Assembly (NCBI RefSeq): GCF_001419985.1
Contig: NZ_LJAL01000004.1
Coordinates: forward strand, 248,001 to 312,000
Length of the DNA stretch: 64,000 nucleotides
Direction: 5' to 3'
Origin: Loktanella sp. 5RATIMAR09
GTDB taxonomy: Bacteria > Pseudomonadota > Alphaproteobacteria > Rhodobacterales > Rhodobacteraceae
The notes below the pieces were generated by a model that saw nothing but the letters and a program-made list of their open reading frames with translations, was not told where the DNA came from and ran no database searches. Each line of letters starts with the position of its first letter. The stretch's first letter is position 1. The position numbers and the translations under genes were made by a program. Shown here in pieces: positions 37,669 through 54,399 of the stretch.

Positions 37669-37706
37669 TTGCTATCTTTCAAAATTGGTAATATATTTTT
37701 ACCAAT
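37669..37706 (+). promoter_or_regulatory. glcD promoter with overlapping GntR-type operator
   Basis: -35 TTGCTA (37669-37674), 17-base spacer, -10 TATATT (37692-37697). A palindrome covers the -10: ATTGGTAA (37684-37691), seven-base spacer, TTACCAAT (37699-37706), perfect 8-bp arms. The TTGGT...ACCAA half-sites and 7-7-7 geometry match the site in front of the GntR gene at 54379-54399. A bound protein would block polymerase, hence repression is predicted. Confidence 0.7.
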
Positions 37707-37728
37707 CATCCGATCAGGGAGTCGTCAC

Positions 37729-39162
37729 ATGCAAATGCCACAACCCAGCGCCAGCGTCATTCGCCGCAAAGATCAGATTGTGGCAAGGCTATCCGAGGTG
37801 CTGCCCCGTGATGCTGTTATCTCGGATGAACATGAAACACGAGCCTATGAATGCGATGCGTTGACGGCCTATAAATGCCCGCCGCTTTGCGCGGTGCTGC
37901 CTTCCAGCACCAAAGAGGTGTCGGATGTCCTGCGCATCTGTCACGAATTGGGCGTGCCCGTTGTGCCACGCGGGTCGGGCACTTCGCTGGCAGGCGGGGC
38001 TTTGCCGACTGCCGATTGCGTGATCCTTGGCGTGGCCAAGATGAACGATGTGATCGAAACCAATTATGATGACCGCTACATCCGCGTGCAAACGGGGCGC
38101 ACAAACCTGTCTGTAACTGGCGCGGTTGAGGGCGACGGGTTCTTTTACGCCCCCGACCCCTCCAGCCAGTTGGCCTGTGCCATTGCGGGCAATATCGCGA
38201 TGAACTCGGGCGGTGCGCATTGTCTGAAATACGGTGTGACCACGAACAATCTGATGGGTGTGACGATGGTGCTGATGGATGGCACCGTGGTCGAGATTGG
38301 TGGTGCGCATCTTGATGCGGGCGGACTGGATCTTTTGGGTGTCATCTGCGGTTCGGAAGGCCAGCTTGGCGTTGTGACAGAGGCGACCTTGCGCATCCTG
38401 CACAAACCCGAGGGCGCGCGCCCCGTGTTGATGGGCTATGACAATTCCGAAGTCGCAGGACAGGTTGTGACCGACATCATCAAGGCCGGCATCCTGCCCG
38501 TTGCCATCGAATTCATGGACCGCCCTTGCATCGAGGCGACCGAGGCGTTCGCCAAAGCGGGCTATCCCATGTGTGAGGCGCTCTTGATCGTCGAGGTCGA
38601 AGGATCAGACGCGGAAATCGATGCGCAACTGAAACTGATTATGGAAATTGCCGCCAAGCATAACCCCGTTGAATTGCGCGAAGCCAAAGACGCGGACGAA
38701 GCAGGCCGCATCTGGTTGGGCCGCAAATCCGCTTTTGGCGCGATGGGGCAAATCAACGATTACATGTGCCTTGATGGCACCATCCCTGTCTCGTCCCTGC
38801 CATTCGTGCTGAAACGCATTGGTGAGATGTCCAAAGAGTTTGGCCTTGATGTGGGCAATGTCTTTCACGCAGGCGACGGCAATATGCACCCGCTGATCCT
38901 GTTTGATGCCAACAAACCCGGTGATCTGGAGCTTTGTGAGGAATTCGGCGCCGAGATTCTAAAGCTCTGCGTCGAAGTGGGCGGTTGCCTGACGGGTGAA
39001 CATGGCGTGGGTATCGAAAAACGCGATCTGATGAATGTGCAATTCGCGCCTGCCGATCTTGAAGCGCAGATGGCGGTCAAAGACATCTTTGATCCTGCGT
39101 GGTTGTTGAATGCGGCCAAAGTGTTCCCGCTGGACACCTCGCAGCCCCGCCGCGCCGCGTAA
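37729..39162 (+). CDS. glcD: Glycolate oxidase subunit GlcD (FAD-linked)
   Basis: A 477-residue flavoprotein of the VAO/PCMH family. The FAD-binding half has PRGSGTSLAGGALP, APDPSSQLACAIAGNIAMNSGGAHCLKYG and ICGSEGQLGVVTEATLRIL; the C-terminal substrate domain has FHAGDGNMHPLI and TGEHGVGIEKR. It catalyses glycolate to glyoxylate oxidation with GlcE and GlcF at the inner membrane. ATG 37729 has AGGGAG eight bases upstream; a longer frame from 37522 lies in the regulatory region and is rejected. First gene of glcDEF. Regulation by an FCD-GntR protein is inferred from the operator. Confidence 0.94.
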   Translation: MQMPQPSASVIRRKDQIVARLSEVLPRDAVISDEHETRAYECDALTAYKCPPLCAVLPSSTKEVSDVLRICHELGVPVVPRGSGTSLAGGALPTADCVILGVAKMNDVIETNYDDRYIRVQTGRTNLSVTGAVEGDGFFYAPDPSSQLACAIAGNIAMNSGGAHCLKYGVTTNNLMGVTMVLMDGTVVEIGGAHLDAGGLDLLGVICGSEGQLGVVTEATLRILHKPEGARPVLMGYDNSEVAGQVVTDIIKAGILPVAIEFMDRPCIEATEAFAKAGYPMCEALLIVEVEGSDAEIDAQLKLIMEIAAKHNPVELREAKDADEAGRIWLGRKSAFGAMGQINDYMCLDGTIPVSSLPFVLKRIGEMSKEFGLDVGNVFHAGDGNMHPLILFDANKPGDLELCEEFGAEILKLCVEVGGCLTGEHGVGIEKRDLMNVQFAPADLEAQMAVKDIFDPAWLLNAAKVFPLDTSQPRRAA

Positions 39163-39188
39163 ATATTCCAAGATATAAGAAGATCGTC

Positions 39189-40292
39189 ATGCAGCCCAAA
39201 TCCGAAGAAGACCTGTCCCAGATGATCATAGGGGCCAACGGCCCCTTGCGGATCACCGGCGGCGGCACGCGCCCCATCGGGCATTGCGATGGTGACGCGC
39301 TCAGCACCGCGGCCCTGAGCGGGATCAGCCTCTATGAGCCCGGCGCACTGACTATCGTGGCGGGCGCTGGCACCCCGATTGCCGAGATTGAGGAAACTCT
39401 TGCGGCGGAAAACCAGCGCCTTGCATTTGAGCCCATGGATCACCGTGTGCTTTTGGGGACCAAAGGCACGCCAACGCTGGGCGGCATGGCCGCTGCCAAT
39501 GTCTCCGGTCCGCGCCGTATTTCCGTGGGTGCCTGCCGTGATTTCATGCTGGGCGTGCGCTTTGTCGATGGTCAGGGCACGATCATCAAGAACGGGGGCC
39601 GTGTGATGAAGAATGTCACCGGCTATGATCTGGTCAAGCTGATGGCGGGGTCCTACGGCACCTTGGGTGTACTGACGGAAGTGTCGCTCAAAGTTCTGCC
39701 GAATGTTGAAACAACCGCGACGCTGCGGCTTCATGGGCTGACAGACAGACAAGCGGTTCAGGCGTTGTCGGCCGCCCTCGGGTCACCATTTGAGGCGACA
39801 GGCGCTGCGCATCTGCCCAAAGGGGCCGATGGCGATCCGGTGACAATGCTGCGGATCGAAGGGTTTGAGGCGTCGATCAAGTACCGCGCAGAGAAATTGC
39901 AGGCGCTGCTGAAACCTTTTGGCACTGTTGATGTTGCATGGGATGATGCCGCGACATGGACAGCTATTCGTGACGTCACCGCATTTGCGGATCAACCCGG
40001 CAATGTCTGGCGCATTTCGGCCAAACCATCTGCCGCGCCGGAACTGGTGGCCAAACTGGACGCGACAGCCGTGCAATACGACTGGGGCGGCGGGTTGATC
40101 TGGGCGTTGGCCGATGAAGGCCGCGACCTGCGCGCCGCTTTGGGCGATTTCGAAGGTCACGCCACGCTGGTTCGAGGCCATGCCGAAGTGCCGGCCTTCC
40201 ACCCCGAATTGCCCGCGCTCGCCACTCTCACCAACGGCCTGCGCGCTAAATTCGACCCACGCGGCATTCTTAACCCCGGGATCATGACCTGA
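39189..40292 (+). CDS. glcE: Glycolate oxidase subunit GlcE
   Basis: A 367-residue FAD-binding subunit, shorter than GlcD and lacking its iron-sulfur or long C-terminal parts. It contains LRITGGGTRPIGH, TLGGMAAANVSGPRR, FVDGQGTIIKNGGRVMKNVTGYDLVKLMAGSYGTLGVLTEVSLKVLP, typical of GlcE. It follows glcD by 26 bases and overlaps the glcF start by one base (TGATG). Together the three subunits form the membrane-associated glycolate dehydrogenase that passes electrons to the quinone pool. Confidence 0.93.
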   Translation: MQPKSEEDLSQMIIGANGPLRITGGGTRPIGHCDGDALSTAALSGISLYEPGALTIVAGAGTPIAEIEETLAAENQRLAFEPMDHRVLLGTKGTPTLGGMAAANVSGPRRISVGACRDFMLGVRFVDGQGTIIKNGGRVMKNVTGYDLVKLMAGSYGTLGVLTEVSLKVLPNVETTATLRLHGLTDRQAVQALSAALGSPFEATGAAHLPKGADGDPVTMLRIEGFEASIKYRAEKLQALLKPFGTVDVAWDDAATWTAIRDVTAFADQPGNVWRISAKPSAAPELVAKLDATAVQYDWGGGLIWALADEGRDLRAALGDFEGHATLVRGHAEVPAFHPELPALATLTNGLRAKFDPRGILNPGIMT

Positions 40293-41611
40293 TGCAAACT
40301 ACATTCACACCAGAGCAACTGACCGATCCCGCAATCAAACGTTCCAACGAAATCCTGCGGTCCTGCGTGCACTGCGGGTTTTGCACCGCGACCTGCCCCA
40401 CCTATCAGGTGCTGGGCGATGAACTCGACAGCCCGCGTGGGCGGATATACCTGATAAAGGACATGCTCGAAAATGAGCGCAAGCCGGATGCAAAGACCGT
40501 CAAACATATTGACCGTTGCCTGTCCTGTCTGGCCTGCATGACGACTTGCCCCTCTGGCGTGCATTACATGCATCTTGTCGATCATGCCCGCGCCTATATC
40601 GAAAAGAATTATGACCGCCCGTTTTCCGACCGCGCGCTGCGCTGGATCCTCGCACGTATCCTGCCTTACCCCATGCGCTTCCGTGTCGCCCTGCTGGGCG
40701 CCAAGATCGGTCGCCCCTTTGCGCGGCTGATGCCCGATGCACGCCTGCGCGCCATGCTGGAAATGGCGCCCAAGACGATCCCGCCCGTCAGCCGCAATGA
40801 CGACCCGCAGACATTCCCCGCCAAGGACAAAAAGATGCGTGTGGCCCTGATGACGGGCTGTGCGCAAAAGGCGCTGAACACGGACATCAACGATGCGACC
40901 ATCCGCCTGCTGACACGGCTCGGGGCCGAGGTCGTGGTAGCCGAAGGGGCCGGATGCTGTGGCGCGCTGACGCACCATATGGGCAAAGAGAAAGAGAGCC
41001 ATGCAACCGCCGCCAAGAACATTCGCGCATGGGCGAAAGAGATGGACAACGACGGCCTCGACGCCATCGTCATCAACACCTCCGGGTGCGGGACCACTGT
41101 GAAGGACTACGGTCACATGTTCCGCAATGACGCGCTGGCCGGGGATGCCGCCCGCGTCTCGGCCATTGCCATGGACGTGTCCGAAATCCTGATGAAGCTG
41201 GACCTGCCCGAGGGCGAAGACAAAGGCACCAAAGTCGCCTATCACGCCGCGTGTTCGCTGCAACATGGCCAGCAGATCAAAACCTACCCGAAGGAATTGC
41301 TGAAAAAAGCAGGCTTTACTGTGCTGGAACCTGCCGACAGCCATCTGTGCTGCGGATCAGCAGGCACTTACAACCTGATGCAGCCAGAAATCTCGAAGCA
41401 GCTCAAGGCGCGCAAGGTACAGACGATTGAGGCACTGACACCCGATATCATCTCGGCGGGCAATATCGGGTGTATGATGCAGATCGGTAGCGGCACCGAC
41501 GTGCCGATTGTGCATACCGTCGAGCTTCTGGATTGGGCAACAGGCGGGCCGCAACCGCCCGCATTGACCGCACCGGGAAAAACCGAACCGCAAATTCCGA
41601 TCTTGCGCTGA
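40292..41611 (+). CDS. glcF: Glycolate oxidase iron-sulfur subunit GlcF
   Basis: A 439-residue protein with two N-terminal 4Fe-4S motifs (CVHCGFCTATCPTY and CLSCLACMTTCPSG) and two cysteine-rich CCG domains in the C-terminal half (GAGCCGALTHHMG and DSHLCCGSAGTYN). It transfers electrons from the flavin subunits to quinone. All iron-sulfur ligands are present. End of the glc operon; the next gene starts 39 bases later and is unrelated. No malate synthase or permease gene follows. Confidence 0.94.
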   Translation: MQTTFTPEQLTDPAIKRSNEILRSCVHCGFCTATCPTYQVLGDELDSPRGRIYLIKDMLENERKPDAKTVKHIDRCLSCLACMTTCPSGVHYMHLVDHARAYIEKNYDRPFSDRALRWILARILPYPMRFRVALLGAKIGRPFARLMPDARLRAMLEMAPKTIPPVSRNDDPQTFPAKDKKMRVALMTGCAQKALNTDINDATIRLLTRLGAEVVVAEGAGCCGALTHHMGKEKESHATAAKNIRAWAKEMDNDGLDAIVINTSGCGTTVKDYGHMFRNDALAGDAARVSAIAMDVSEILMKLDLPEGEDKGTKVAYHAACSLQHGQQIKTYPKELLKKAGFTVLEPADSHLCCGSAGTYNLMQPEISKQLKARKVQTIEALTPDIISAGNIGCMMQIGSGTDVPIVHTVELLDWATGGPQPPALTAPGKTEPQIPILR

Positions 41612-41650
41612 TGTCATAATCCTGCCCTATCTATCCGTAAGAAATATCTG

Positions 41651-42475
41651 ATGATACGGACAGGGATGATACGACAGCTTCTGGTCTCGGCGATCCTCGG
41701 GGTCGCAACGACGCTTGCAGCGCAGGCGCAAGACGCAGGTCTTGTGACGCTCCAGACGCGACAGGACAGCCAGGGATGGGAAGCCGTCGGGCGACTTGAT
41801 ATCCGTGGCAAGGGGTTCTGTACGGCGGCGCTGATCCGCGACCGCCTGATCCTCACAGCGGCGCACTGCCTTTATGACATCGACGGTTCCTTGGTTACGC
41901 CAGACCGGTTTTCCTTTCAGGCCGGACTACGTGACGGACGGGCGCAGGCCACACGCGCCGTAACACGGGCAGTGGCGCATCCGGAATACTCCCACAGCGG
42001 CGATGCAGCAGATACAAGCGGAGTGGCCATTGATATCGCCGTTCTGGAACTGGACCGACCGATCCGCAATACACGTATCCTGCCTTATGCCATTGCCCGG
42101 CGTCCGATCACGGGTGATCAGGTTGGCGTTGTGTCCTACGGGCGCGGTCGCGAAGATGCGCCAAGCCTGCAACAGGTCTGCGATGTGCTCGGACGGCAGA
42201 CCGGCGTGATCGTGATGACCTGCGATGTTGAATACGGATCAAGCGGATCACCCGTTTTCATCATGAATGATGGCGAAACACGGATTGCTTCGGTTGTGTC
42301 GGCCATGGCGCAAATCAACGGGCAGAAAGTGTCGCTTGGTACCTCGCTTGAGGGGCCACTGAATGTCTTGCTGAGCCATTTTGCAACACTTGGTCCGGCG
42401 CGGATCGGGGGCGTCCAGCGGCTTATGCCGGGCGGTGTGCGCAATGACACAGGCGCGAAATTCATCCAGCCCTGA
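41651..42475 (+). CDS. Secreted trypsin-like serine protease
   Basis: A 274-residue S1-family protease. The signal peptide (MIRQLLVSAILGVATTLAAQAQ, preceded by five residues if the first ATG is used) is followed by the catalytic triad: His in LTAAHC, Asp in DIAVLELD, Ser in GSSGSPVF. Cysteines pair around FCTAALIRDR and the histidine loop. The serine motif is GSSGS rather than the usual GDSGG, as in glutamyl-endopeptidase/V8-like and DegP-like variants. Expected in the periplasm or outside the cell. A start at 41666 is also plausible. Confidence 0.88.
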   Translation: MIRTGMIRQLLVSAILGVATTLAAQAQDAGLVTLQTRQDSQGWEAVGRLDIRGKGFCTAALIRDRLILTAAHCLYDIDGSLVTPDRFSFQAGLRDGRAQATRAVTRAVAHPEYSHSGDAADTSGVAIDIAVLELDRPIRNTRILPYAIARRPITGDQVGVVSYGRGREDAPSLQQVCDVLGRQTGVIVMTCDVEYGSSGSPVFIMNDGETRIASVVSAMAQINGQKVSLGTSLEGPLNVLLSHFATLGPARIGGVQRLMPGGVRNDTGAKFIQP

Positions 42476-42479
42476 GCCT

Positions 42480-42508
42480 CTTGAAAGCGAAAACAACCGC
42501 CCCCAAAT
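42480..42508 (+). promoter_or_regulatory. Predicted heat-shock (RpoH) promoter of hsp20
   Basis: CTTGAAA (42480-42486), 13-base spacer, CCCCCAAAT (42500-42508) closely follow the sigma-32 consensus (CTTGAAA, CCCCAT-T). The leader to the Hsp20 ATG would be about 90 bases. Confidence 0.6.
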
Positions 42509-42607
42509 AGGGTGTACCGGGATGCCAATGCTGGGTCCCGCGCAACCGGCCTGTCCCCAATGGGAAGGTCAAAACATTGTTATCGCTTAAGAAAAAGGAT
42601 GACCTAA

Positions 42608-43075
42608 ATGCGTGCATTTGATCTGACACCCCTCTACCGTGCCACCGTTGGCTTCGACCAGATCGCCGATCTGATGGATCGCGCCCTTGCCAGCGATGTT
42701 GGCCAGAACACCTACCCCCCATACAATATCGAAAAAACCGATGATGACGCATGGCGTATCTCGATCGCTGTTGCCGGTTTTTCCGATGACGACCTCTCGA
42801 TCGAGGTCAAAGACCGTGCGCTTCTTGTGACCGGTCGCAAAGCCTCTGATGATAGCGAGCGCACCTACCTGCACCGTGGCATTGCCACCCGCGCATTCGA
42901 GCGCCGCTTCCATCTGGCCGACCACGTGCGCGTGACGGGTGCGAGCCACGAAAACGGCATGCTCAACATTGATCTGGTACGCGAAGTGCCCGAGGCGCTG
43001 AAACCACGCCGGATCGAGATTACGTCTGACGCAAAGAAAGACGCTAATCTGGTCGAGGCGAAGTCGGTTAACTAA
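42608..43075 (+). CDS. Small heat-shock protein, Hsp20/IbpA family
   Basis: A 155-residue alpha-crystallin domain chaperone. It opens MRAFDLTPLYRATVGFDQIADLMDRAL, the IbpA-type N-terminus, followed by the crystallin strands YNIEKTDDDAWRISIAVAGFSDDDLSIEVKDRALLVTGRK and the ENGMLNIDLVREVPEALKPRRIEI end with an I/V-x-I/V-like element. It holds unfolded proteins during heat stress. AAGGA lies eight bases before the ATG, and an RpoH-like promoter is seen at 42480. The arms AGGTCA and TGACCT flank the ribosome site region in the leader, which could fold around it. Confidence 0.92.
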   Translation: MRAFDLTPLYRATVGFDQIADLMDRALASDVGQNTYPPYNIEKTDDDAWRISIAVAGFSDDDLSIEVKDRALLVTGRKASDDSERTYLHRGIATRAFERRFHLADHVRVTGASHENGMLNIDLVREVPEALKPRRIEITSDAKKDANLVEAKSVN

Positions 43076-43098
43076 GCCGACAGCAACCTAAGCAAACG

Positions 43099-43133
43099 AA
43101 AGCGCGCCTTGCATCCGCAATGGTGCGCTTTTT
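43099..43133 (+). terminator. Rho-independent terminator after hsp20
   Basis: AAAGCGCGCC (43099-43108) pairs with GGTGCGCTTT (43122-43131) with one wobble pair, followed by a run of T. It also faces the end of polA on the other strand. Confidence 0.8.
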
Positions 43134-43142
43134 GCTATCCGG

Positions 43143-45959
43143 CTAGTGTGCCTCAGCCCAATTCGCGCCCTGCCCTGCATCCACGGCCAGTTTCACATCC
43201 AGCTTCACCGCCGGATTGCTCGCATTTTCCATGACTTCGCGCGCCACGCCGATCAGATCGTCAGCCGCCTCTTCATTGACCTCGAAGATCAGTTCGTCGT
43301 GCACCTGTAGCAGCATTTTTGCGGGCAGCCCCTCGATCGCCGCAGGCATCCTGATCATTGCGCGGCGGATCACATCTGCCGCTGTTCCCTGAATGGGCGC
43401 GTTGATGGCGGCGCGTTTGGCAAAGCCTGCTTGCGGTCCTTTGGCATTGATCTCGGGCGTATTGATTTTACGCCCGAATAGCGTTTGCACATGCCCGTGC
43501 TCTTTGGCGAAAGCGATGGTGTCATCCATGTAATTGCGGATGCCGGGGAAGCGTTCGAAATAGCGGTCGATGAACCCCTGCGCCTCGGCCCGCGGGATGC
43601 GCAGGTTGCGCGCAAGGCCAAAGCCGGAGATGCCGTAGATCACACCAAAGTTGATCGCTTTGGCCTGACGGCGCACGTCGGGCGTCATCTCGTCCAGCGG
43701 CACATCGAACATTTCCGATGCTGTCATGGCGTGAATGTCGATACCGTCCAGAAACGCCTGTTTCAGCGCATCAATCCCTGCGATATGCGCCAGAATTCGC
43801 AGCTCGATCTGGGAATAGTCGAGGCTCACAATCACCTTACCAGGTTCAGCGACAAAGGCTTCGCGGATGCGCCGCCCTTCCTCGGACCGAACCGGAATGT
43901 TCTGCAAATTCGGATCGGTTGACGCCAGACGGCCTGTGTTTGCACCCGCAATCGAATAGGAGGTGTGCACGCGCCCTGTCTCTTTGTTGATATGCTCTTG
44001 CAGGGCATCCGTATAGGTGGATTTCAACTTCGACAGTTGCCGCCAGTCGAGGATGCGACGCGGCAAGTCGTGCAACGTGGCAAGGTCTTCAAGCACATCG
44101 GCACCGGTGGAATAGGCCCCTGTCTTGCCGGTTGCCGGTTTTTTGCCGTCGGGCATTTCCAGCCCCATTTCGTCGAACAGGATTTCGCCCAACTGCTTGG
44201 GTGAACCGACGTTAAAAGGCCGCCCTGCCATTTCCTGAATTTCCGCCTCAAGCCCTGCCATTTTCTGCGCAAAGGCATTCGACATCCGGCTGAGCGTGTC
44301 GCGGTCCACCTTGATCCCGTTCCGCTCCATCTGCGCCAGCACAGGCACGAGGGGGCGTTCCATCGTTTCATAAACGGTCGTCACATGGTTCACATGGAGT
44401 TGCGGCTTGAACTGCTGCCACAGACGCAGGGTGATGTCGGCATCCTCGGCGGCATATTTCACCGCGTCATCAACGGGGACACGATCAAAGGTGATCGCGG
44501 ATTTGCCGCTGCCCAACAAGGGTTTGATCGGGATCGGCGTGTGGCCCAGATACCGTTCGGACAGGGTATCCATGCCGTGATTATGCAACCCTGCATTCAT
44601 GGCGTAAGACATCAGCATCGTGTCGTCGATAGGCGCAACTGTGATATCAAGACGGGTGAAAATCTTGGTGTCGTACTTCATGTTCTGCCCGATTTTCAGG
44701 ATCGCGGGATCCTCAAGCACGGGTTTCAGCATCGCCAGACATTCCGCCAAATCCATCTGCCCTTCGGCCATGTCATCCGACCCGAACAGATCATCCGAGG
44801 ACGCGGATTTATGGGTCAGCGGGATATAACAGGCCTGCCCCGCCGCGACACAAAGCGAGATGCCGACAAGATCGGCAATCATTTCGTTCAGGCCCGTGGT
44901 TTCGGTATCCACCGCCACATAGCCACGCTCACGGATGCGGTTTATCCAGACCTGCAGGGCCGCCGCATCGCGCACACACTCATAAGCGTCAGCATCAAAA
45001 CCCACCTGCGCGGGTGCGGCCACTTCGGTTGCGGCGGGTGCTGCCGCTTCGATGACGGGTGGTGCAACTCCCAGCTTCTCGGCGATCCGCTTGGTCACCG
45101 TCCGGAATTCCATTTCGGCAAGGAAGCCCATCAAAACCTCTGGATCAGGATCGCGCACCTCCAGATCATCAAGATCGAAATCCAATGTCATATTGCAATC
45201 AAGCTGGACCAGCTTTTTCGACAGCTCGATCTGCGCACGATGCTCAATCAGCGTCTCGCGCCGCTTGGGTTGTTTGATCTCGCCCGCACGGTCCAGCAGG
45301 CTTTCCAGATCACCATACTCGTTGATCAAAAGTGCGGCTGTCTTGATCCCGATCCCCGGCGCACCCGGTACGTTATCCACGCTGTCGCCTGCCAAAGCCT
45401 GCACATCGACGACGCGGTCGGGGCCGACGCCGAACTTTTCAACGACACCATCGCTATCGATGCGCTTGTTCTTCATCGGATCCAGCATCTCAACACCGTC
45501 ACCGACCAACTGCATCAGATCCTTGTCGGATGACACAATCGTTACACGCCCACCGGCATCACGGGCCTGATGGGCAAGGGTTGCGATAATATCGTCGGCC
45601 TCGAACCCTTCCATCTCTTCGCAGGCGATATTGAACGCCTTGGTCGCCACGCGGGTCAGGGGGATTTGCGGGCGCAGGTCCTCTGGCATCGCGTCGCGGT
45701 TGGCCTTGTACTGGTCGTACATATCGTTGCGGAACGTATGGCTGCCCTTGTCGAAAATCACGGCGACATGGGTGGCGGCATCGTCACCATTGTTGCCGTC
45801 GACATAGCGTTGCAGCATGTTGACGAAACCGCTGACCGCACCAACAGGCAGCCCGTCTGATTTGCGTGTGAGGGGCGGTAGCGCGTGATAAGCGCGGAAA
45901 ATGAAGGCCGAGCCGTCAATCAGATGCAGGTGACAGCCTTTGCCGAATTTCGTTTCCAT
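43143..45959 (-). CDS. polA: DNA polymerase I
   Basis: A 938-residue family A polymerase. The 5'-3' exonuclease/FEN domain (about 1-300) has DGSAFIFRAYHALPPL and acidic metal ligands. The 3'-5' proofreading domain (about 330-520) keeps the DxE motif (VDTETTGLNE), so proofreading is probably active. The polymerase domain (about 540-938) has motif A VSLDYSQIELRILAH, the O-helix RRQAKAINFGVIYG and motif C QVHDELIFEV. It processes Okazaki fragments and fills repair gaps. Length is normal. The gene upstream on the same strand is a zinc-finger protein about 100 bases away. Confidence 0.96.
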   Translation of the reverse strand: METKFGKGCHLHLIDGSAFIFRAYHALPPLTRKSDGLPVGAVSGFVNMLQRYVDGNNGDDAATHVAVIFDKGSHTFRNDMYDQYKANRDAMPEDLRPQIPLTRVATKAFNIACEEMEGFEADDIIATLAHQARDAGGRVTIVSSDKDLMQLVGDGVEMLDPMKNKRIDSDGVVEKFGVGPDRVVDVQALAGDSVDNVPGAPGIGIKTAALLINEYGDLESLLDRAGEIKQPKRRETLIEHRAQIELSKKLVQLDCNMTLDFDLDDLEVRDPDPEVLMGFLAEMEFRTVTKRIAEKLGVAPPVIEAAAPAATEVAAPAQVGFDADAYECVRDAAALQVWINRIRERGYVAVDTETTGLNEMIADLVGISLCVAAGQACYIPLTHKSASSDDLFGSDDMAEGQMDLAECLAMLKPVLEDPAILKIGQNMKYDTKIFTRLDITVAPIDDTMLMSYAMNAGLHNHGMDTLSERYLGHTPIPIKPLLGSGKSAITFDRVPVDDAVKYAAEDADITLRLWQQFKPQLHVNHVTTVYETMERPLVPVLAQMERNGIKVDRDTLSRMSNAFAQKMAGLEAEIQEMAGRPFNVGSPKQLGEILFDEMGLEMPDGKKPATGKTGAYSTGADVLEDLATLHDLPRRILDWRQLSKLKSTYTDALQEHINKETGRVHTSYSIAGANTGRLASTDPNLQNIPVRSEEGRRIREAFVAEPGKVIVSLDYSQIELRILAHIAGIDALKQAFLDGIDIHAMTASEMFDVPLDEMTPDVRRQAKAINFGVIYGISGFGLARNLRIPRAEAQGFIDRYFERFPGIRNYMDDTIAFAKEHGHVQTLFGRKINTPEINAKGPQAGFAKRAAINAPIQGTAADVIRRAMIRMPAAIEGLPAKMLLQVHDELIFEVNEEAADDLIGVAREVMENASNPAVKLDVKLAVDAGQGANWAEAH

Positions 45960-46242: not shown

Positions 46243-46329
46243 CATCTTACCTGTCTGGTTGCCGCGGGGCACGCCCCGCCTTAAGTCTGCACCAGACATA
46301 CCGCAGCTGCGGCGCAGGGGAAAGACAAC

Positions 46330-47259
46330 ATGACCGACAATGCCATAGAAATTCAGGGGCTGAAAAAAACCTATGCCGCGACCGGACGCAGCCCTGCCAA
46401 AGAGGCACTGAAAGGCATCGACCTGAACATTCCGCGCGGATCTATTTTTGGCCTTTTGGGGCCGAATGGCGCGGGCAAATCGACGCTGATCAATATTCTG
46501 GCAGGTCTGGTCGTCAAGACAGAGGGCACAGTGAATATCTGGGGCTTTGATCAGGACAAGAATCCGCGCCAGTCGCGCGCGGCCATCGGGATCATGCCGC
46601 AAGAGCCGCATCTGGACCCGTTCTTTACACCGGCAGGATCGCTCGACGTGCAGGCGGGGCTTTACGGTGTGCCCAAAAGCCAGCGCAGGACAGCCGAAAT
46701 TCTGGACCTGATCGGGCTGACAGACAAGGCCGACGCCTATGCGCGCTCGCTCTCGGGCGGCATGCGGCGCAGGCTTTTACTGGGCAAGGCGCTGGTGCAT
46801 TCACCGCAGATCCTTGTGCTGGACGAACCCACCGCAGGTGTCGATATCGAACTGCGCAACATGCTTTGGCAGAACGTGCGCAAGCTGAATGATGAGGGCA
46901 TGACGATCATCCTCACGACCCACTACCTCGAAGAGGCCGAAGAAATGTGCGACGATATCGCCATCATCAACCATGGCGAGGTGATCGTGCGCGACAGCAC
47001 CGCCAACCTGCTGGGGCGTTTGGACAGCAAGACGCTTGTGATTACACCTGAAACCGAGGCCGACCTGCCCGCCCTGCCCGATAATATCACAGGCCATAAG
47101 CTACCAAATGGGACGCTCACGTTCACCTATACGAGCGGCACCACCCCAGCGGATCAAATCCTCAACATCGTGCGCGACGCAGGGATCACCATCAAGGATG
47201 TTAAAACCGAAGAGGCCCATCTTGAAGAGGTGTTCTTGTCGCTCACATCTTCGAAATAG
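46330..47259 (+). CDS. ABC transporter ATPase, ABC-2 exporter type (YadG-like)
   Basis: A 309-residue ATPase with Walker [12 protein letters not shown] (about 47-57), Q-loop in [13 protein letters not shown], signature SLSGGMRRR (about 136-144), Walker [12 protein letters not shown] and switch His in LTTHYLEE. The C-terminal 70 residues form the accessory domain seen in DrrA/CcmA-type ABC-2 exporters. These normally pair with a separate permease, but neither neighbour is one, so the permease is encoded elsewhere or the gene works alone. It ends close to the palindrome at 47301. Confidence 0.9.
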
Positions 47260-47300
47260 GCATGGACTTTCTATGTCCAATCAAACTTCCCCCGGAGGGC

Positions 47301-47322
47301 ATCAAAATTCTTGAATTTTGAT
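47301..47322. terminator. Perfect palindrome between convergent genes, second repeat family
   Basis: ATCAAAATTC, TT, GAATTTTGAT: 10-bp arms without mismatch. It lies between the ABC ATPase and HIT genes and touches the HIT stop codon. It shares the outer CAAAAT...ATTTTG arms with the palindrome at 119-138 and probably acts as a terminator. Confidence 0.7.
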
Positions 47323-47684
47323 TACTTCGCCAACATCCGCCCCATCGGCCGACCGCCCAGAATATGCATGTGGTAATGCGGCACTTCCTGCACACCATTC
47401 ATCCGGGTGTTCGCGATGGCGCGGAAACCGTCTTCAACGTCAGTCAGGCGACAGACCTCGGCCACAGCCTGCATAAAGCCTGAATGTTCCTCTGCCGACG
47501 CGTCGCGGGCAAAGTGATCGAGGCTCATGTAGGGGCCTTTGGGAATGACCAGCACATGCACGGGCGCCTGCGGCGTGATATCTTCAAAGGCCAGCGCGTG
47601 CTCGTTTTCATAGACGGTTTTATTGGGGATCTCTCCGCGCAGGATTTTGGCAAAGATATTCTGATCGTCGTAGGCGTATTCCAT
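47322..47684 (-). CDS. hinT: HIT (histidine triad) family nucleotide hydrolase, HinT type
   Basis: A 120-residue HINT-like protein. It starts MEYAYDDQNIFAKILRGEIPNKTVYENEHALAFEDI and ends with the catalytic triad HYHMHILGG (HxHxH). Such enzymes hydrolyse purine nucleoside phosphoramidates and aminoacyl adenylates. GAGGA before the second in-frame ATG supports 47684 over 47696. Downstream of the glycosyltransferase gene by nine bases, so probably co-transcribed, though a functional link is not obvious. Confidence 0.92.
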   Translation of the reverse strand: MEYAYDDQNIFAKILRGEIPNKTVYENEHALAFEDITPQAPVHVLVIPKGPYMSLDHFARDASAEEHSGFMQAVAEVCRLTDVEDGFRAIANTRMNGVQEVPHYHMHILGGRPMGRMLAK

Positions 47685-47692
47685 GGGGGTCC

Positions 47693-49270
47693 TCAATCAA
47701 CAAAAAGATGGGGGGTATCGGCAAGCGTGCGTGCTACATCCGGTGACACGCTCAGAAACTGCGCAAGTGCAGAGGCGTTTTCATCCGTCGTCGCGGTTTC
47801 CTTGAGGCGGCTGGCATTCACGAATTGCGCATCGCGAATGGCTTCGCGCTCATAAACCATGTCATGACGGATCGTTGGCAAAAGCCGCGCGAACGTTGCT
47901 TCACTGGTCTGCGGACCGGCAAGCCCCACCCGCATCGCGTGACCGACCAGATAATCATCATCAAAACCGCATTCGATCTCCAGCAAGCGCACGGTCGCGC
48001 GGTCGGTGTAGAAATCGGTAATCAGATCGAGGCTGGAGGTATCAAGACAGATCACCAAGCGGTCACTGTCGAAATGGTCAAAAAGCAACCGCATCAGGGC
48101 CCGGCGATGCCGCCCGCGTTTCTGCAACGACGTCTCAATGCCACCCAGATCCGGCAAAGGCGTCGCGTCTTCGTTGAAAAGGTACTCCAACGCAGGCACG
48201 TTGGTATGATGCTGAATTCCCGCGACAAGTCGCTTTGCCACGTGCCATTTCTTGCAGGCGATGATCATCAACTCGCGGCTGCGGCCCAATGTTGTTTCAT
48301 TCTCCCAAAACCGCGGTGCAAAGCGCCGCCCGACCCGACCCCGCCCTGTGAGAAACTGAAACAGTTGCCGCCCCTCGTCCGAAATCACAAAGTCCATCCG
48401 GTCGCTGGCGTATAACGCGCCCAAACGGGTGCGCAGATCTTCTGCCTCGACACTGATCTTGCGGGCAAAGAGCGATCCTTGCCCCAAAAGCAGCTCGTAA
48501 TGATCGTTATAGAAGGTCACCGGCATGCCGTAGTCGGTGAACATCAGAAACGTCAGCGTGCGGTTCTCGATCTCGCGGGCGGGCACAAGATGGCGCACGA
48601 GGGTCTGAAAAAACGTCTCGTCCGGAATCCAAGTTGTGCGAAAAAAGCGCATGACATCACGGCGGGTATAGGCGAAGTCCAGTATCGCCTCGATGGTCTG
48701 ACGGCGCAGACACCACCATTGGCTGCCTATCATGATTTGCAAATCCTCGGGGATTTTGCGTGTCATCCTGAACCGCTTTTGCAACTCTAGCGCGGTGTAG
48801 AACCGGCGCTTCTGGGTCCGCTCGTTAAAGAAATGGCGGTAAACCAGCCGTTCCTCGCGAAAGCCCGTCTTGATCCAGTTGCTGTCAAAGAAATCATGGC
48901 TTTCAATGTAATCCACATCGTTTGCATCCAGCAGTTCATGGGCGAATTTCGCAGACTTGATGGGCATGCAATCGCCCGACACCATGTAGAAATGGGTGGC
49001 GCGCGGAAAGGCTGTGACAGCGGCTTCCACGGCATGCAATGTTGCTTGCACGAGGCTCCATTCGCCCCAACCGCATTTCACCCGTCGTTTGGCAAAGGCG
49101 ACATTCTCGTTTTCGGCCAAAGCCGCTTTGATTTCGCTGAAATCCGACGCCGCCGCAGAGGCATCAAAGTGAATCGCAATATAGTCACCCGCTGCCGTCA
49201 ACTGCTCTGCCTGCTGGATTATCGCCGCAGGATTCTTGTGGCAGAGCAAGATAAAAGCGACACGTGCCAT
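47693..49270 (-). CDS. GT14 core-2/I-branching-like glycosyltransferase with DUF5928 C-terminus
   Basis: A 525-residue protein. The N-terminal GT14 (Branch) domain has MARVAFILLCHKNPAAIIQQAEQLTAAGDYIAIHFDASA, THFYMVSGDCMPIKSA and IGSQWWCLRR...WIPDETFFQTLVRH, the pattern of beta-1,6-N-acetylglucosaminyltransferases. The C-terminal 200 residues correspond to the DUF5928-type extension of Rhodobacterales, in which ALEYLF and an RRALMRLLFDHFDSDRLVICLDT segment stand out. Acceptor unknown. A frame reaching 49603 is open upstream but would run through the neighbouring divergent gene. Divergent from a sulfotransferase gene; both probably decorate the same surface glycan. Confidence 0.86.
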   Translation of the reverse strand: MARVAFILLCHKNPAAIIQQAEQLTAAGDYIAIHFDASAAASDFSEIKAALAENENVAFAKRRVKCGWGEWSLVQATLHAVEAAVTAFPRATHFYMVSGDCMPIKSAKFAHELLDANDVDYIESHDFFDSNWIKTGFREERLVYRHFFNERTQKRRFYTALELQKRFRMTRKIPEDLQIMIGSQWWCLRRQTIEAILDFAYTRRDVMRFFRTTWIPDETFFQTLVRHLVPAREIENRTLTFLMFTDYGMPVTFYNDHYELLLGQGSLFARKISVEAEDLRTRLGALYASDRMDFVISDEGRQLFQFLTGRGRVGRRFAPRFWENETTLGRSRELMIIACKKWHVAKRLVAGIQHHTNVPALEYLFNEDATPLPDLGGIETSLQKRGRHRRALMRLLFDHFDSDRLVICLDTSSLDLITDFYTDRATVRLLEIECGFDDDYLVGHAMRVGLAGPQTSEATFARLLPTIRHDMVYEREAIRDAQFVNASRLKETATTDENASALAQFLSVSPDVARTLADTPHLFVD

Positions 49271-49387
49271 GTTTTCGTTCGATCCTCTTTCACAAGTCGT
49301 GTTCAAAGCTGTCATAACGCGAACAGTCATTGAAGTTACAGGCTTTCTTTGCTTTGAAAGAGCATAGTATTTGAAAAGGATTTTTGC

Positions 49388-50206
49388 GTGGCGAATTTTC
49401 CGGGAACCTGGATGACCGAGAGCGAAAGCGTGGTTTACCGCGTTGTGCCAAAATGCGCCTGCTCGACGATCGGGCAGATCATGTATTATTCCGACCATGG
49501 CAATTTCTTTGACGGCGACATCCACGACGCCAAGTCCGGCATCCATAAATGGGCACATGACGAAAGCAAGCCGCTGATCGAACGGAACGTGGCGGCGCAT
49601 CAAAGCTATGCTTTCACCTGCGTGCGCAATCCCTACACGCGCATCCTGTCGTCTTTCTTTGACAAGATTTGCGGCGTGCAGCGCAACGGCAAATACTATC
49701 GCGGCAATCTGGTGCCACTGTTGATCCAGAAGTACGGGATCGAGGTGGGCGACCCCGAAAGCGGCTTTGAATTCGACCAGATCAAGAGTTTCCGGCGCTT
49801 CCTTTTATTCGCGCGTGATACCATCCGCTGGCGCCGCCCGATGGAGCCTGACATCCATTGGTCGGCCATGTCCGGCCATATCTCCACCTTCATCGTAAAC
49901 GGCGGGCGTTACGACAACATTTTCTGGACCGAGAAATTCAATGACGGGATGCAGCAGGTGCTGGACGGTATCGAAACCAAGCATCCTGTCGACCTGGCGC
50001 AAATCCCGCGCTTTAACGAAAGCGAAGGACACGGACCCAAACGTGCCCATCCTGTCGAGGATTACTTCGACGATCTGTCCATGCATATCGTCTATGAAAT
50101 CTACAAGAAGGACTTTCGCATCTTCAAATACGATTTCGAAAATCCTGCCAACAAGATGCCAATTGGCGACATTGATCTGGATGAGGTTCACGCCAAACTC
50201 GGCTGA
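49388..50206 (+). CDS. Sulfotransferase family 2 protein
   Basis: A 272-residue carbohydrate-type sulfotransferase. The 5'-phosphosulfate-binding loop is VVPKCACSTI at about residues 18-27, and the 3'-phosphate site is CVRNPYTRILSSF at about 78-90. The start is GTG 49388 with AAGGA eight bases upstream. It would move a sulfuryl group from PAPS to a sugar hydroxyl. No lipid or transmembrane segment is seen. Context with a GT14 enzyme and a further unknown protein suggests capsule or exopolysaccharide modification. Confidence 0.87.
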   Translation: MANFPGTWMTESESVVYRVVPKCACSTIGQIMYYSDHGNFFDGDIHDAKSGIHKWAHDESKPLIERNVAAHQSYAFTCVRNPYTRILSSFFDKICGVQRNGKYYRGNLVPLLIQKYGIEVGDPESGFEFDQIKSFRRFLLFARDTIRWRRPMEPDIHWSAMSGHISTFIVNGGRYDNIFWTEKFNDGMQQVLDGIETKHPVDLAQIPRFNESEGHGPKRAHPVEDYFDDLSMHIVYEIYKKDFRIFKYDFENPANKMPIGDIDLDEVHAKLG

Positions 50207-50267
50207 CACTCGACATTTGCGCGGCACGGCCTAACTCTTTGATCGTAAAGACGAAGGATGTGGTCTT

Positions 50268-50975
50268 ATGTCGGTCGTATTGATCCTGGGCAGTGGCCCG
50301 AATGTCGTAAAATGCCGTGAATGGCCGCGTGATCCGTTTGATCGGATCGTTGCCATCAATAACGCGTGGGCCGTGCGCCCTGATTGGGATGATCTGATCC
50401 ATCCTGACGACTTTCCGATTGAGCGGATGCCGGTCGATATGTCCGCCAGCCAACGGATCATCCGCGCAACAGACTATGTGCCGCTCCAGAATACGCTGGG
50501 TGGGTTTGTTTATGCCGGTGGCACGATGGCCTTTACGGCATCCTACTGGGCTTTGGCCGCGCTTAAACCAAAGGTGATTGCCGTTCTGGGCTGCGATATG
50601 GTTTACCGCGACACCCGCAAAACCCACTTCTACGGTAAAGGCACAGCCGATCCCTTGCGCGAAGACGTCTCTCTGCGGTCTCTTGAGGCAAAATCTGCGC
50701 GCCTGATGGCACTGGCTGCACGCCAAGGCTGCGCGATGGTCAACCTGTCAACCGACGAAAGCAGACTGGTGTTTCCGCGCGCCACGCCAGAAGCGGCAGC
50801 AGAAGCCAAGCCACTGTCACCTAACGAAGCGGTCATCGACGCCGCTTTGGCCCAAGAGGAACGTTTGGGGTATTACGTCCCATCCGGCAAATACTGGAAA
50901 GAGGAAAGCCGCTTTGACATAGGCGCGATTGATGCGCTGGATGCGCTCTGGCTTAAAGCAGCCCCTGCCCTTTGA
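50268..50975 (+). CDS. Conserved protein of unknown function beside sulfotransferase
   Basis: A 235-residue soluble protein. It begins with a strand and glycine turn (MSVVLILGSGPNVVKCREWP) and then AINNAWAVRPDWDDLIHPDDFPIERMP and VIAVLGCDMVYRD, a Rossmann-like alternating alpha/beta layout. The GSGPN start and the phrase about naming a place or position (INNAW) resemble nucleotide-sugar-dependent glycosyltransferases of the sialyltransferase type only in outline, so no function is assigned. It follows the sulfotransferase by 61 bases and its end overlaps the adenosine kinase end by 23 bases on the opposite strand. Confidence 0.7.
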   Translation: MSVVLILGSGPNVVKCREWPRDPFDRIVAINNAWAVRPDWDDLIHPDDFPIERMPVDMSASQRIIRATDYVPLQNTLGGFVYAGGTMAFTASYWALAALKPKVIAVLGCDMVYRDTRKTHFYGKGTADPLREDVSLRSLEAKSARLMALAARQGCAMVNLSTDESRLVFPRATPEAAAEAKPLSPNEAVIDAALAQEERLGYYVPSGKYWKEESRFDIGAIDALDALWLKAAPAL

Positions 50976-51945
50976 ACAACGCTTTCAGATCCGCCTCGGG
51001 GCGCGCACCGATGTGGCTGATGACCTCGGAAGCGGCGGAATTACCCATCTTTGCGCATGTCTCAAGGTCATACCCGTTGGTCAGACCCCACAGGAACGCA
51101 CCGGCAAAAAGATCACCCGCGCCAGTGGCATCAACAATGTCGGTCGGTACCGCAGGCACATGCCAGTGCTGGCCCTCAGCCAAGACATGCACGCCATTTT
51201 CACTGTCGGTACAGGCCACAATCGCCACCTCTGACGCTGCCCGCGCCAAAGCACCGTCAAAATCATCCGTCTGATACATCGACCCCATTTCAGCGCGGTT
51301 GCAGAACAACAGGTCAACGTGATCGCGGATCATATCGCGGAACGCATCGCGGTGCCGGTCTATGCAGAAAGGATCAGACAGCGTCAGGGACACACGCCCG
51401 CCTGCGCCCTTGCAGGCCGCAACCGCCTTGGCAAAAGCCGCATGGCTGTCTGGCCCGTCAAAACGGTAACCTTCCAGATAAATCCATTCGGCCTCGGCCA
51501 TCTGGTCTTCGTCAATATCGTCAGCGGACAGAAATTCAGTGACGCCCAGATAGGTGTTCATTGACCGCTCGCCATCGGGTGTGACGATCACAATGCAGCG
51601 GCCCGTTTCGGCCTCATCAGTCTTGGGTGCCATCGCGGTTTCATAGCTTGCCCCCTGCGCCCGCAGATCATGGGCAAAGATCGCGCCCAGCTGGTCATTC
51701 TTGACCTTCCCCACATAGGCGGTGCGTCCACCCAGATGGGCAATCCCTGCAATCGTGTTCGCCGCCGATCCGCCGCTGATCTCTTTTGCGGGGCCAACGC
51801 GGGAATACAGATCAACCGCACGGTCCATGTCGATCAGTTGCATGATGCCTTTTTCAACACCCGCCTGGGCCAGAAACGCATCTTCGGCGCGCGCCAAAAC
51901 ATCGACAATCGCGTTACCGATGCCCACGACCTGATACTTTTTCAT
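50953..51945 (-). CDS. Adenosine kinase / PfkB family carbohydrate kinase
   Basis: A 330-residue ribokinase-fold enzyme. The N-terminal GIGNAIVDVLARAEDAFL and SGGSAANTIAGIAHLGG motifs and the C-terminal PfkB signature DATGAGDLFAGAFLWG with its catalytic aspartate are all present. The close family is adenosine kinase (phosphorylating adenosine to AMP), but substrate preference within PfkB enzymes is not safe from sequence. The start overlaps the nth stop by four bases, so the two genes are co-translated. Confidence 0.87.
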   Translation of the reverse strand: MKKYQVVGIGNAIVDVLARAEDAFLAQAGVEKGIMQLIDMDRAVDLYSRVGPAKEISGGSAANTIAGIAHLGGRTAYVGKVKNDQLGAIFAHDLRAQGASYETAMAPKTDEAETGRCIVIVTPDGERSMNTYLGVTEFLSADDIDEDQMAEAEWIYLEGYRFDGPDSHAAFAKAVAACKGAGGRVSLTLSDPFCIDRHRDAFRDMIRDHVDLLFCNRAEMGSMYQTDDFDGALARAASEVAIVACTDSENGVHVLAEGQHWHVPAVPTDIVDATGAGDLFAGAFLWGLTNGYDLETCAKMGNSAASEVISHIGARPEADLKALFKGQGLL

Positions 51946-52586
51946 AGGTTTTTATCCTCAAACATGCAGAGATCGCGGATCAAACAAGCCGCGCATTTGG
52001 GTTTACGTGCCACACAGGTGTAGCGGCCATGCAGGATCATCCAGTGATGTGCATGGAGTTGAAAATCAGCCGGAATATGGTCTTCGATCGCGCGCTCGAC
52101 CGCATCCACATCCTTGCCCGGTGCTACACCGCTGCGGTTACCAAATCGGAAAATATGGGTATCGACCGCTTGGGCGGGCTGCTGCCACCACATATTCAGC
52201 ACCACATTGGCCGTCTTACGCCCGACACCGGGCAGCGATTGCAGGGCCGCGCGGGAATTGGGAACAACCCCGCCATATTCATCAACCAGAATCTGGCTCA
52301 TCTTGATGACGTTCTTGGCCTTTTGCCGGAACAGGCCAATGGTCTTGATATGCTCGGTCACCCCCTCAAGCCCGAGGTCGAGCATTTTCTGGGGTGTATC
52401 GGCAATCTTGAACAGCTCCCGCGTGGCCTTGTTCACACCTGCGTCAGTGGCCTGCGCCGACAGCGCCACAGCCACGACAAGCGTGTAGACATTCACATGC
52501 TCAAGCTCGCCTTTTGGTTCAGGCTCTGCTGCATGGAACCGCTCAAAGATCGCGCGGATGGTATGATAATCAAGCTGTTTGGCCAT
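51942..52586 (-). CDS. nth: Endonuclease III
   Basis: A 214-residue DNA glycosylase/AP lyase. The helix-hairpin-helix LPGVGRKTANVVLNMWW with the catalytic lysine, the catalytic aspartate in AVDTHIFRFGNR, and the 4Fe-4S cluster motif C-x6-C-x2-C-x5-C (CVARKPKCAACLIRDLC) are intact. It removes oxidised pyrimidines in base excision repair. ATG 52586 is preferred over an in-frame ATG at 52622. Divergent from an alkylation-repair gene, so DNA repair genes face each other here. Confidence 0.94.
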   Translation of the reverse strand: MAKQLDYHTIRAIFERFHAAEPEPKGELEHVNVYTLVVAVALSAQATDAGVNKATRELFKIADTPQKMLDLGLEGVTEHIKTIGLFRQKAKNVIKMSQILVDEYGGVVPNSRAALQSLPGVGRKTANVVLNMWWQQPAQAVDTHIFRFGNRSGVAPGKDVDAVERAIEDHIPADFQLHAHHWMILHGRYTCVARKPKCAACLIRDLCMFEDKNL

Positions 52587-52679
52587 GGCGTCCGGTATGC
52601 CTTGAAGCCCGTAGGGGAGCAAGCGCGGATGCGCAATTTTCGGGTCGCTTCACCGGTGCCTTGCCCATAGTTTGAACGC

Positions 52680-53528
52680 ATGGAACAAAGTGACACATAC
52701 CACTATCAAGTGATGCGCCGCGCAATCGAAGCGATTGATGCCGCAGGCGACGAGCCTCGTACGCTGGCTGATCTGGCGACCGAGATGAACATGAGCCCTG
52801 CGCATTTTCAGCGGCTGTTTTCGGCATGGGTGGGCGTGTCACCAAAACGCTATCAGCAATATCTGACGCTGGGCCATGCCAAAACGCTTTTGCGCGACCG
52901 ATTTACAACGCTGCAAACGGCACATGCCGTGGGCCTGTCAGGCAGCAGCCGCCTCCATGATCTATTTGTGCGCTGGGAGGCGATGAGCCCCGGCGACTAT
53001 GCCCGCGACGCCGCCGACCTGACGATCCGCTGGGGGTGGTTTGAAAGTCACTTTGGTCCTGCGCTGGTCATGGGCACCGATCGCGGCATTTGCGGGCTGG
53101 CCTTTGCTGCCGAGGCAGGGCCGGATGCGGCGATGGATGATCTGACGTCGCGCTGGCCGAAGGCCACATTCATCGAGGATCCTGCGGCCCTGCACCCTTG
53201 GGCCACCGCCGCCCTTGGCATGACGGGTGAAACGCAACTGCACATGATCGGCGCGCCCTTTCAGCTCAAGGTGTGGGAGGCCCTGCTGACCATCCCGTCA
53301 GGCCATGTGACCACCTATTCCGAAATCGCGCAAGCGGTTGGCAGCCCCAAAGCGGTGCGCGCCGTTGGCACAGCCGTTGGGCGAAACCCGGTAAGCTGGC
53401 TGATCCCCTGTCACCGTGCCTTGCGCAAATCAGGGGCGCTTGGGGGGTATCACTGGGGCCTACCGGTCAAGCGCGCCATGCTGGCGTGGGAATCCGCAAG
53501 GGCCGATGCCGCGCCCCGAAACCCTTAG
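52680..53528 (+). CDS. ada: Ada-like O6-methylguanine-DNA methyltransferase with AraC-type HTH
   Basis: A 282-residue protein. An AraC-like helix-turn-helix (about 5-100; TLADLATEMNMSPAHFQRLFSAWVGVSPKRYQQYLTLGHAK) is followed by a methyltransferase domain with the acceptor Cys244 in IPCHRALRKSGALGGYHWG. It thus has the middle and C-terminal parts of E. coli Ada but lacks the N-terminal zinc domain that takes methyl groups from phosphotriesters. It repairs O6-methylguanine and may still act as a regulator. It is the size seen in many alphaproteobacteria. Confidence 0.9.
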   Translation: MEQSDTYHYQVMRRAIEAIDAAGDEPRTLADLATEMNMSPAHFQRLFSAWVGVSPKRYQQYLTLGHAKTLLRDRFTTLQTAHAVGLSGSSRLHDLFVRWEAMSPGDYARDAADLTIRWGWFESHFGPALVMGTDRGICGLAFAAEAGPDAAMDDLTSRWPKATFIEDPAALHPWATAALGMTGETQLHMIGAPFQLKVWEALLTIPSGHVTTYSEIAQAVGSPKAVRAVGTAVGRNPVSWLIPCHRALRKSGALGGYHWGLPVKRAMLAWESARADAAPRNP

Positions 53529-53646
53529 AATAGGCAAAACCCTGCTGGTCCCGGCGCCGTTATTGGATATCATGGCAGAAATGGGCATAAGCTGACCCAT
53601 CACAGATGGTGCGCCTATTGCACCGATATTAAATGGAACCATGACC

Positions 53647-54303
53647 ATGAAACTTACCAAATTCCCGCTCGTTGTCGCCGCAGCGTCACTGACCCTGATT
53701 GCCGCCTGCGATGAAACCGGTCCGAACCAGATGCAGAACACACAACAGGGCGCCGCCATCGGCGCAGGCGCCGGTGCGCTTTTGGGTGTGATTGCCAATA
53801 GCGGCGGCTCTGTCGAAGACCGCCAGCGCGGCGCATTGATCGGTGCGGCCCTCGGTGGCGGTGTTGGTGCCGGCGTGGGCAACAGCCTTGACCGTCAGGC
53901 AGAAGACCTGCGCCGCTCGCTACGCAACGATGTTGGTGTGTCCAATAACGGCCGCAACCTTGTTGTCGTTCTCAGCCAGGACCTGTTGTTCGCGACAAAC
54001 AGCACACAGGTGTCCGGCACATCGCAAAACGAGTTGCGTATCGTTGCGAATTCATTGAACCAATATCCGGACACGACGGTCAACGTGATCGGCCATACCG
54101 ACAACGTCGGTGATGCGTCATTTAACCAAGGCCTGTCCGAACGCCGCGCGCAAGCTGTTGCTGCGATCCTGATGGGTGGTGGCGTGTCACCGGCCCGTAT
54201 CCGCTCGATCGGTGCAGGCGAGAACAATCCGATTGCGTCGAACCTGAACGCATCGGGCCGCCAGATGAACCGCCGCGTGGAAATCGTGATTACGCCAAAC
54301 TAA
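53647..54303 (+). CDS. OmpA-family peptidoglycan-binding lipoprotein
   Basis: A 218-residue protein with a lipoprotein signal (KLTKFPLVVAAASLTLIAAC). A glycine-zipper segment follows (GAAIGAGAGALLGVIAN...GALIGAALGGGVGAGVGN), and the C-terminal OmpA domain has NVIGHTDNVGDASFNQGLSERRAQAVAAILMGGGVSPARI and NRRVEIVI. It should anchor the outer membrane to peptidoglycan. An ATG at 53641 sits closer to GGAA than is usual, so the second ATG is chosen. Followed by a strong terminator. Confidence 0.9.
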   Translation: MKLTKFPLVVAAASLTLIAACDETGPNQMQNTQQGAAIGAGAGALLGVIANSGGSVEDRQRGALIGAALGGGVGAGVGNSLDRQAEDLRRSLRNDVGVSNNGRNLVVVLSQDLLFATNSTQVSGTSQNELRIVANSLNQYPDTTVNVIGHTDNVGDASFNQGLSERRAQAVAAILMGGGVSPARIRSIGAGENNPIASNLNASGRQMNRRVEIVITPN

Positions 54304-54329
54304 GGCGCCGCTTGTTTCATGATCCACCC

Positions 54330-54360
54330 GAGGAGCCGCAGTGATGCGGCTCCTCTTTCT
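54330..54360 (+). terminator. Rho-independent terminator after the OmpA gene
   Basis: GAGGAGCCGCA (54330-54340), loop GTGA, TGCGGCTCCTC (54345-54355), then TTTCTT. An 11-bp perfect stem. Confidence 0.9.
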
Positions 54361-54362
54361 TA

Positions 54363-54399
54363 TTGTGGATGCGCAACGTTGGTCATATCATTTGACCAA
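54363..54399 (+). promoter_or_regulatory. gntR promoter with overlapping autoregulatory operator
   Basis: -35 TTGTGG (54363-54368), 17-base spacer, -10 TATCAT (54386-54391). A palindrome covers the -10: TTGGTCA (54379-54385), seven-base spacer, TGACCAA (54393-54399). The layout is the same as at the glcD promoter (37684-37706), including the operator centred on the -10 box, so the GntR protein encoded here probably represses both. Confidence 0.7.

Follow-up and report, generated by a model that had tools for sequence, protein, structure and literature searches.

The stretch of DNA analysed here (the window) comprises 64,000 nucleotides from Loktanella sp. 5RATIMAR09, a member of the Rhodobacteraceae. 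It encodes the putative glycolate oxidase genes glcDEF and, 17 kb away, a regulator gene, gntR (Table 1). The regulator, P0001, belongs to the FadR/FCD subfamily of the GntR family, as it combines an N-terminal GntR winged helix with a C-terminal FCD domain. Two copies of a 21-bp inverted repeat, TTGGTNA-N7-TNACCAA (equal to a TGGT-N11-ACCA core), precede glcD and gntR and are the candidate operators through which P0001 would control glycolate oxidation and its own synthesis.

Table 1. Operators, promoter, terminator and genes of the window (window coordinates)
Feature	Position	Strand	Basis and remarks
Predicted glcD promoter TTGCTA-N17-TATATT	37669..37697	+	Promoter scan; -10 (37692-37697) within N7 of the operator
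glcDEF operator TTGGTAATATATTTTTACCAA	37685-37705	+	Ends 23 bp 5' of the glcD ATG (37729)
glcD, glycolate oxidase flavin adenine dinucleotide (FAD) subunit	37729..39162	+	PF02913, PF01565; GlcD models rank first and second in NCBIfam, each short of its cut-off
glcE, glycolate oxidase subunit	39189..40292	+	NF008439 GlcE, 271 bits (cut-off 284); start codon by eye
glcF, glycolate oxidase iron-sulfur subunit	40292..41611	+	NF008434 GlcF, 468 bits (cut-off 333)
Terminator-like hairpin	54330..54355	+	Separates gntR from the OmpA-like gene (identified by eye) that precedes it
gntR operator TTGGTCATATCATTTGACCAA	54379-54399	+	Ends 18 bp 5' of the gntR ATG (54418)
gntR, GntR/FCD regulator P0001 (255 aa)	54418..55185	+	PF00392, 68 bits; PF07729, 80 bits; each exceeding its gathering score

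The two matching sites are present as claimed in the first-pass annotation, which had begun the glcD site one base early. A scan of the 3.70-Mb genome for the 21-bp pattern, proposed there as a check, returns two exact matches, both at the glcD and gntR promoters, and none for the reversed control pattern. With up to one mismatch, the window holds the same two sites only, and 100 shuffles give a mean of 0.06 matches, none reaching two. With up to two mismatches, the whole genome holds 80 matches versus 84 for the reversed control; therefore only near-exact matches are meaningful, and no further targets are claimed from the weaker ones. Chance likeness of two promoter palindromes is made somewhat easier by the AT-rich promoters in which both sites lie, yet the shuffles, the reversed control and the strict conservation of the spacer counter it, as does the comparison of genomes, and this explanation has a negligible probability. 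The same three lines of evidence agree with the earlier claim that such a match of half-sites and spacing is unlikely by chance.

Promoter alignments across genomes place the site in a common register. In 84 aligned glcD promoters, a TTGCCA-like -35 element starts 16 bp 5' of the operator and a TATATT-like -10 lies in the N7, with 17 bp between them; 64 aligned gntR promoters share this register, but more weakly. Both sets keep TTG at positions -16 to -14 relative to the site as well as a TAT within the N7, the -35 of gntR being weakly conserved. In the window, the gntR promoter read by eye, TTGTGG-N17-TATCAT, has 8 of 12 consensus matches in the register found at glcD. Equal placement of the two sites, as first proposed, is supported by these alignments. 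The accompanying claim that both sites cover the -10 of a 17-bp-spaced promoter holds at glcD according to the scan; at gntR it holds by eye alone, with a promoter weaker than implied.

Residues D150, H154, H202 and H224 of P0001, presumed in this family to be the metal ligands of the FCD domain, are kept in the alignment as in GlcC, LldR and the glycolate regulator GlcR of Paracoccus, whereas in PdhR neither the Asp nor the first His is kept in the same alignment. The recognition helix of P0001, presumably the one that reads DNA in this family, is nearly identical to that of E. coli PdhR. At the level of named functions, P0001 scores below the cut-offs of the equivalog models for PdhR (NF007001, 191 bits, cut-off 330), LldR (NF007741, 167 bits, cut-off 311) and GlcC of the E. 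coli type (NF007442, 147 bits, cut-off 301). Regulators of Loktanella sp. PT4BL (98% identity) and of several Yoonia (87-89%) are among its relatives. Elsewhere on the gntR side of the window (52680-53528), an AraC-like helix-turn-helix is fused, as judged by eye, to a methylated-DNA methyltransferase-like domain (Ada-like).

Genome comparison gives strong support to the link of P0001 with its own promoter and with glcDEF. The sample consists of 120 Rhodobacteraceae genomes, one per genus. P0001 was matched in 91 of them at 1e-50; two of these (G023 and G117), with a 40-42% paralogue only, were counted as lacking it, which leaves 89. Exclusion of G022 and G098 from the upstream counts, owing to partial P0001 and glcD matches, gives 87 gntR promoters, and three further genomes without a glcD match (G011, G056, G119) bring the glcD promoters from P0001-bearing genomes to 84. 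Among the 31 genomes without P0001, some of which are incomplete, so that assembly gaps may account for a few of the absences, three have no glcD match (G033, G042, G090), leaving 28 glcD promoters; glcD itself was matched in 114 of the 120. The site stands 5' of glcD, with at most two mismatches, in 84/84 examined genomes that have P0001 (67 of them exact) and in 0/28 that lack it, which bears out the initial proposal that the regulator is tied to its own promoter and to glcDEF. It precedes gntR itself in 64 of 87 genomes within two mismatches and in 71 within three; autoregulation thus appears less conserved than the glcD link. Among the best 80 regulator loci of a second search, a set overlapping the 87 genomes, 75 carry the site within two mismatches (one locus, L414, has 38 bp of upstream DNA only). 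Anywhere in the genome, the exact pattern occurs in 82 of the 120 genomes, compared with 11 for the reversed control, and in 79 of the 89 with P0001. A substitute GntR regulator near glcD, searched for with P0001 as the query in the 28 P0001-free genomes, was not found at 1e-8 within 5 kb on each side (less at contig ends). One such genome (G061, locus L106, 91% complete, P0001 not found) has a decayed-looking site with three mismatches 45 bp 5' of glcD, which might reflect erosion of the site or absence of the P0001 gene from the assembly.

Conservation extends to the spacer, measured from an exact TGGT to an exact ACCA no more than 150 bp from the start codon. In P0001-bearing genomes, TGGT-N11-ACCA occurs in 82/84 glcD, 52/87 gntR and 35/48 lldD promoters (lldD encodes L-lactate dehydrogenase, see below), while any other gap is found in at most three promoters per set and the gap of 3 in none of the 84 glcD promoters. 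Without P0001, the gap of 11 occurs in 0/28 glcD and 0/22 lldD promoters, and a single promoter has a gap of 2. Twelve named promoters were also scanned for exact TGGT-Nk-ACCA with k from 0 to 20. The value k = 11 was found at glcD of P. denitrificans, P. ferrooxidans, Sulfitobacter OXR-159 (plasmid) and S. meliloti pSymB, and k = 3 at the E. coli pdhR promoter. The same scan found no exact repeat at Sulfitobacter LC.270, the S. meliloti regulator, two Skermanella, Marivivens, E. coli glcC-glcD and lldP; by eye, Sulfitobacter LC.270 has one N11 repeat with a changed base. The spacer is thus wider than that of the PdhR site, as first noted, with 11 versus 3 bp between TGGT and ACCA. In the FadR subfamily a spacer of 3 nt is typical, according to the part of PMC4494728 available, and alphaproteobacterial GlcC motifs differ in spacer length from the beta/gammaproteobacterial motif (PMC5343134, available part). 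Given the latter, a wide spacer is not new in principle.

The pattern also points to lldD, which is the third conserved predicted target. Four one-mismatch matches exist in the whole genome, and that at lldD alone was accepted as a target: TCGGTAACAAATAATTACCAA (C4:128124-128144) ends 15 bp 5' of the ATG and lies on the contig of the window, 157 kb away and about 120 kb outside it. Two of the others were dropped as targets, one inside a 703-aa frame and one overlapping the start of a 429-aa frame (membrane protein by eye). The fourth (G000:C11:49334-49354, L263) lies 97 bp 5' of a 195-aa frame that, by eye, encodes a secreted EF-hand-like protein and has no evident connection with hydroxy acids. 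Across the family, 104 of the 120 genomes have an lldD match. The site precedes it in 42 of the 48 P0001-bearing genomes examined (taken in match-list order from 83) and at 0/22 loci without P0001, these being all such loci, from 21 genomes. The 42 aligned lldD promoters keep the operator, with a TTGC element 3 bp further upstream and without a clear TATAAT-like -10 in the N7. One genome (G037) has three lldD matches, on contigs 74, 92 and 106. The pattern occupies at least 75 places in the family; among the matches listed, 40 lie before glcD or gntR and 35 elsewhere, of which 18 belong to lldD, 6 to the solute-binding protein of a tripartite ATP-independent periplasmic (TRAP) transporter (PF03480), 2 to malate synthase G (one of them also facing a divergent gene) and 1 to D-lactate dehydrogenase, the remaining 8 having been viewed by eye with no target gene assigned. 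The last three of these kinds of gene thus carry the site in a few relatives. The original target list was right in naming the regulator's own gene and glcDEF, and incomplete in that it missed lldD.

Collectively, P0001 is probably an autoregulated FCD repressor of 2-hydroxy-acid oxidation that acts on glcDEF, its own gene and lldD and is released by an acid. A P0001 dimer would bind the inverted repeat and, lying over the -10 of glcDEF and gntR, would keep RNA polymerase off. Binding of a small 2-hydroxy acid, be it glycolate or L-lactate or both, at the FCD metal site would then release P0001, and glycolate oxidase and L-lactate dehydrogenase would be switched on together. Direct binding, repression and the ligand are what we infer from comparison of sequences. 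The site over the -10, autoregulation and the behaviour of GlcR argue for repression that is lifted by a 2-hydroxy acid; as the site stands before lldD as well as glcDEF, the ligand may be glycolate, L-lactate or both. That P0001 binds the same sites and acts as an activator or dual regulator, like E. coli GlcC, is unlikely: it shares the subfamily with GlcC, LldR and PdhR, which are dual regulators in the E. coli record, yet the position of the glcD site over the -10 suits blocking and not recruiting, and the related GlcR is a repressor (PMC11323563, available part).

Several observations weigh against the repressor model. The promoter scan of the gntR upstream region found no promoter, and 16 of 87 P0001 orthologues have no site within three mismatches 5' of their own gene. 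At lldD, promoter blocking is less clear, given the shifted element and the indistinct -10, and 6 of the 48 promoters from P0001-bearing genomes lack the site. The exact pattern also occurs in 3 of the 31 genomes without P0001, in none of them 5' of glcD or lldD. E. coli GlcC, a relative of P0001, is described as an activator in the available part of PMC11323563. Finally, Fisher tests for co-occurrence with P0001 give 5e-27 (glcD) and 4e-13 (lldD) with kinship ignored. A GlcD tree of 58 genomes (30 of the 84 with P0001 and all 28 without) needs five changes of the site-presence label (5-7 in bootstraps). It is poorly resolved and its well-supported branches alone would allow a single presence change; the Fisher values therefore overstate independence. 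Such correlational evidence, with perhaps few independent events, would also fit sites belonging to another regulator merely co-inherited with P0001, and glcD and gntR share a contig in only 32 of 84 genomes, at least 10 kb apart in all 32 pairs. Against this stand the site before the P0001 gene itself, at the frequencies given above for the 87 genomes and the 80 best loci, and a half-site shared with E. coli pdhR, the recognition helix of PdhR being nearly the same as that of P0001. Co-inheritance of another regulator is accordingly quite improbable, though less so than chance likeness, and repression by P0001 itself is retained.

A broader proposal, to which we give about even chances, is that one FCD regulator joins glycolate and L-lactate oxidation across the Rhodobacteraceae, reading PdhR-like half-sites placed 8 bp further apart than those of PdhR by means of an almost unchanged recognition helix. 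If so, a different arrangement of the dimer, or two dimers, would be needed on DNA, and one sensor would perhaps serve both acids. Heterotrophic bacteria find abundant carbon in the glycolate that algae release (PMC11323563, available part). On the present comparison, one regulator would connect glycolate with L-lactate oxidation in most sampled Rhodobacteraceae genera, a wiring that can be tested. With one half-site and recognition helix at two spacings (3 and 11 bp), it also makes the structure of the FCD dimer a directly testable question.

The function class is already known, namely that of a GlcR-type glycolate regulator of glcDEF. According to the available part of PMC11323563, GlcR of Paracoccus denitrificans (Pden_4400) binds Pglc and represses glcDEF, and is released by glycolate, not by glyoxylate. 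The GlcR sequence compared here is the protein beside glcD in strain HAMBI_2443, taken as GlcR from species and position. Like P0001, GlcR is a GntR/FCD protein linked to glcDEF, with TGGT-N11-ACCA at glcD and the FCD metal residues. It differs in being about 38% identical and in falling into a separate clade: in a tree of 24 proteins, the P0001 clade (100/99) and the GlcR clade (97/97) are distinct, the deeper forks being weak. Identity of P0001 with Paracoccus GlcR was rejected on these two grounds. Moreover, the GlcR gene adjoins glcDEF (seen here in P. ferrooxidans; for P. denitrificans, PMC11323563), while that of P0001 does not, and glcDEF is the only target named for GlcR in the available part of that source, while P0001 is also tied to lldD. 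No Paracoccus-type GlcR was found in the 120 family genomes at 1e-60, in a search without positive control. On two Sulfitobacter plasmids (L235, L236), a Paracoccus-type regulator and glcDEF stand beside transposase genes (IS5-like; Mu-type with TniB), and this module may move between lineages. On S. meliloti pSymB (L238), where glcD has TGGT-N11-ACCA, a regulator of the FadR family (42% identity to P0001) is encoded about 2.6 kb off, with DUF3422 and LysR genes between.

Leyn et al. 2016 (PMC5343134, available part) predict alphaproteobacterial GlcC regulons, which are GntR regulons for glycolate with a deviating spacer, and P0001 may already be among that GlcC set. Three points were not found in the open-licence literature: the joint link of P0001 to glcD and lldD, the tendency of site and regulator to be present or absent together, and the pairing of a PdhR-like recognition helix with an 11-bp gap. 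E. coli LldR has the FCD metal residues, and lldD is the neighbour of its gene; it differs in being 35% identical to P0001, in being encoded between lldP and lldD and in having no exact TGGT/ACCA repeat 5' of lldP for gaps of 0-20. E. coli PdhR gives P0001 its best NCBIfam score and shares the near-identical recognition helix and the TTGGT/ACCAA half-sites; it differs in its 3-bp gap, as compared with 11, in lacking, as aligned, the Asp and first His of the metal site and in the position of its gene before aceE.

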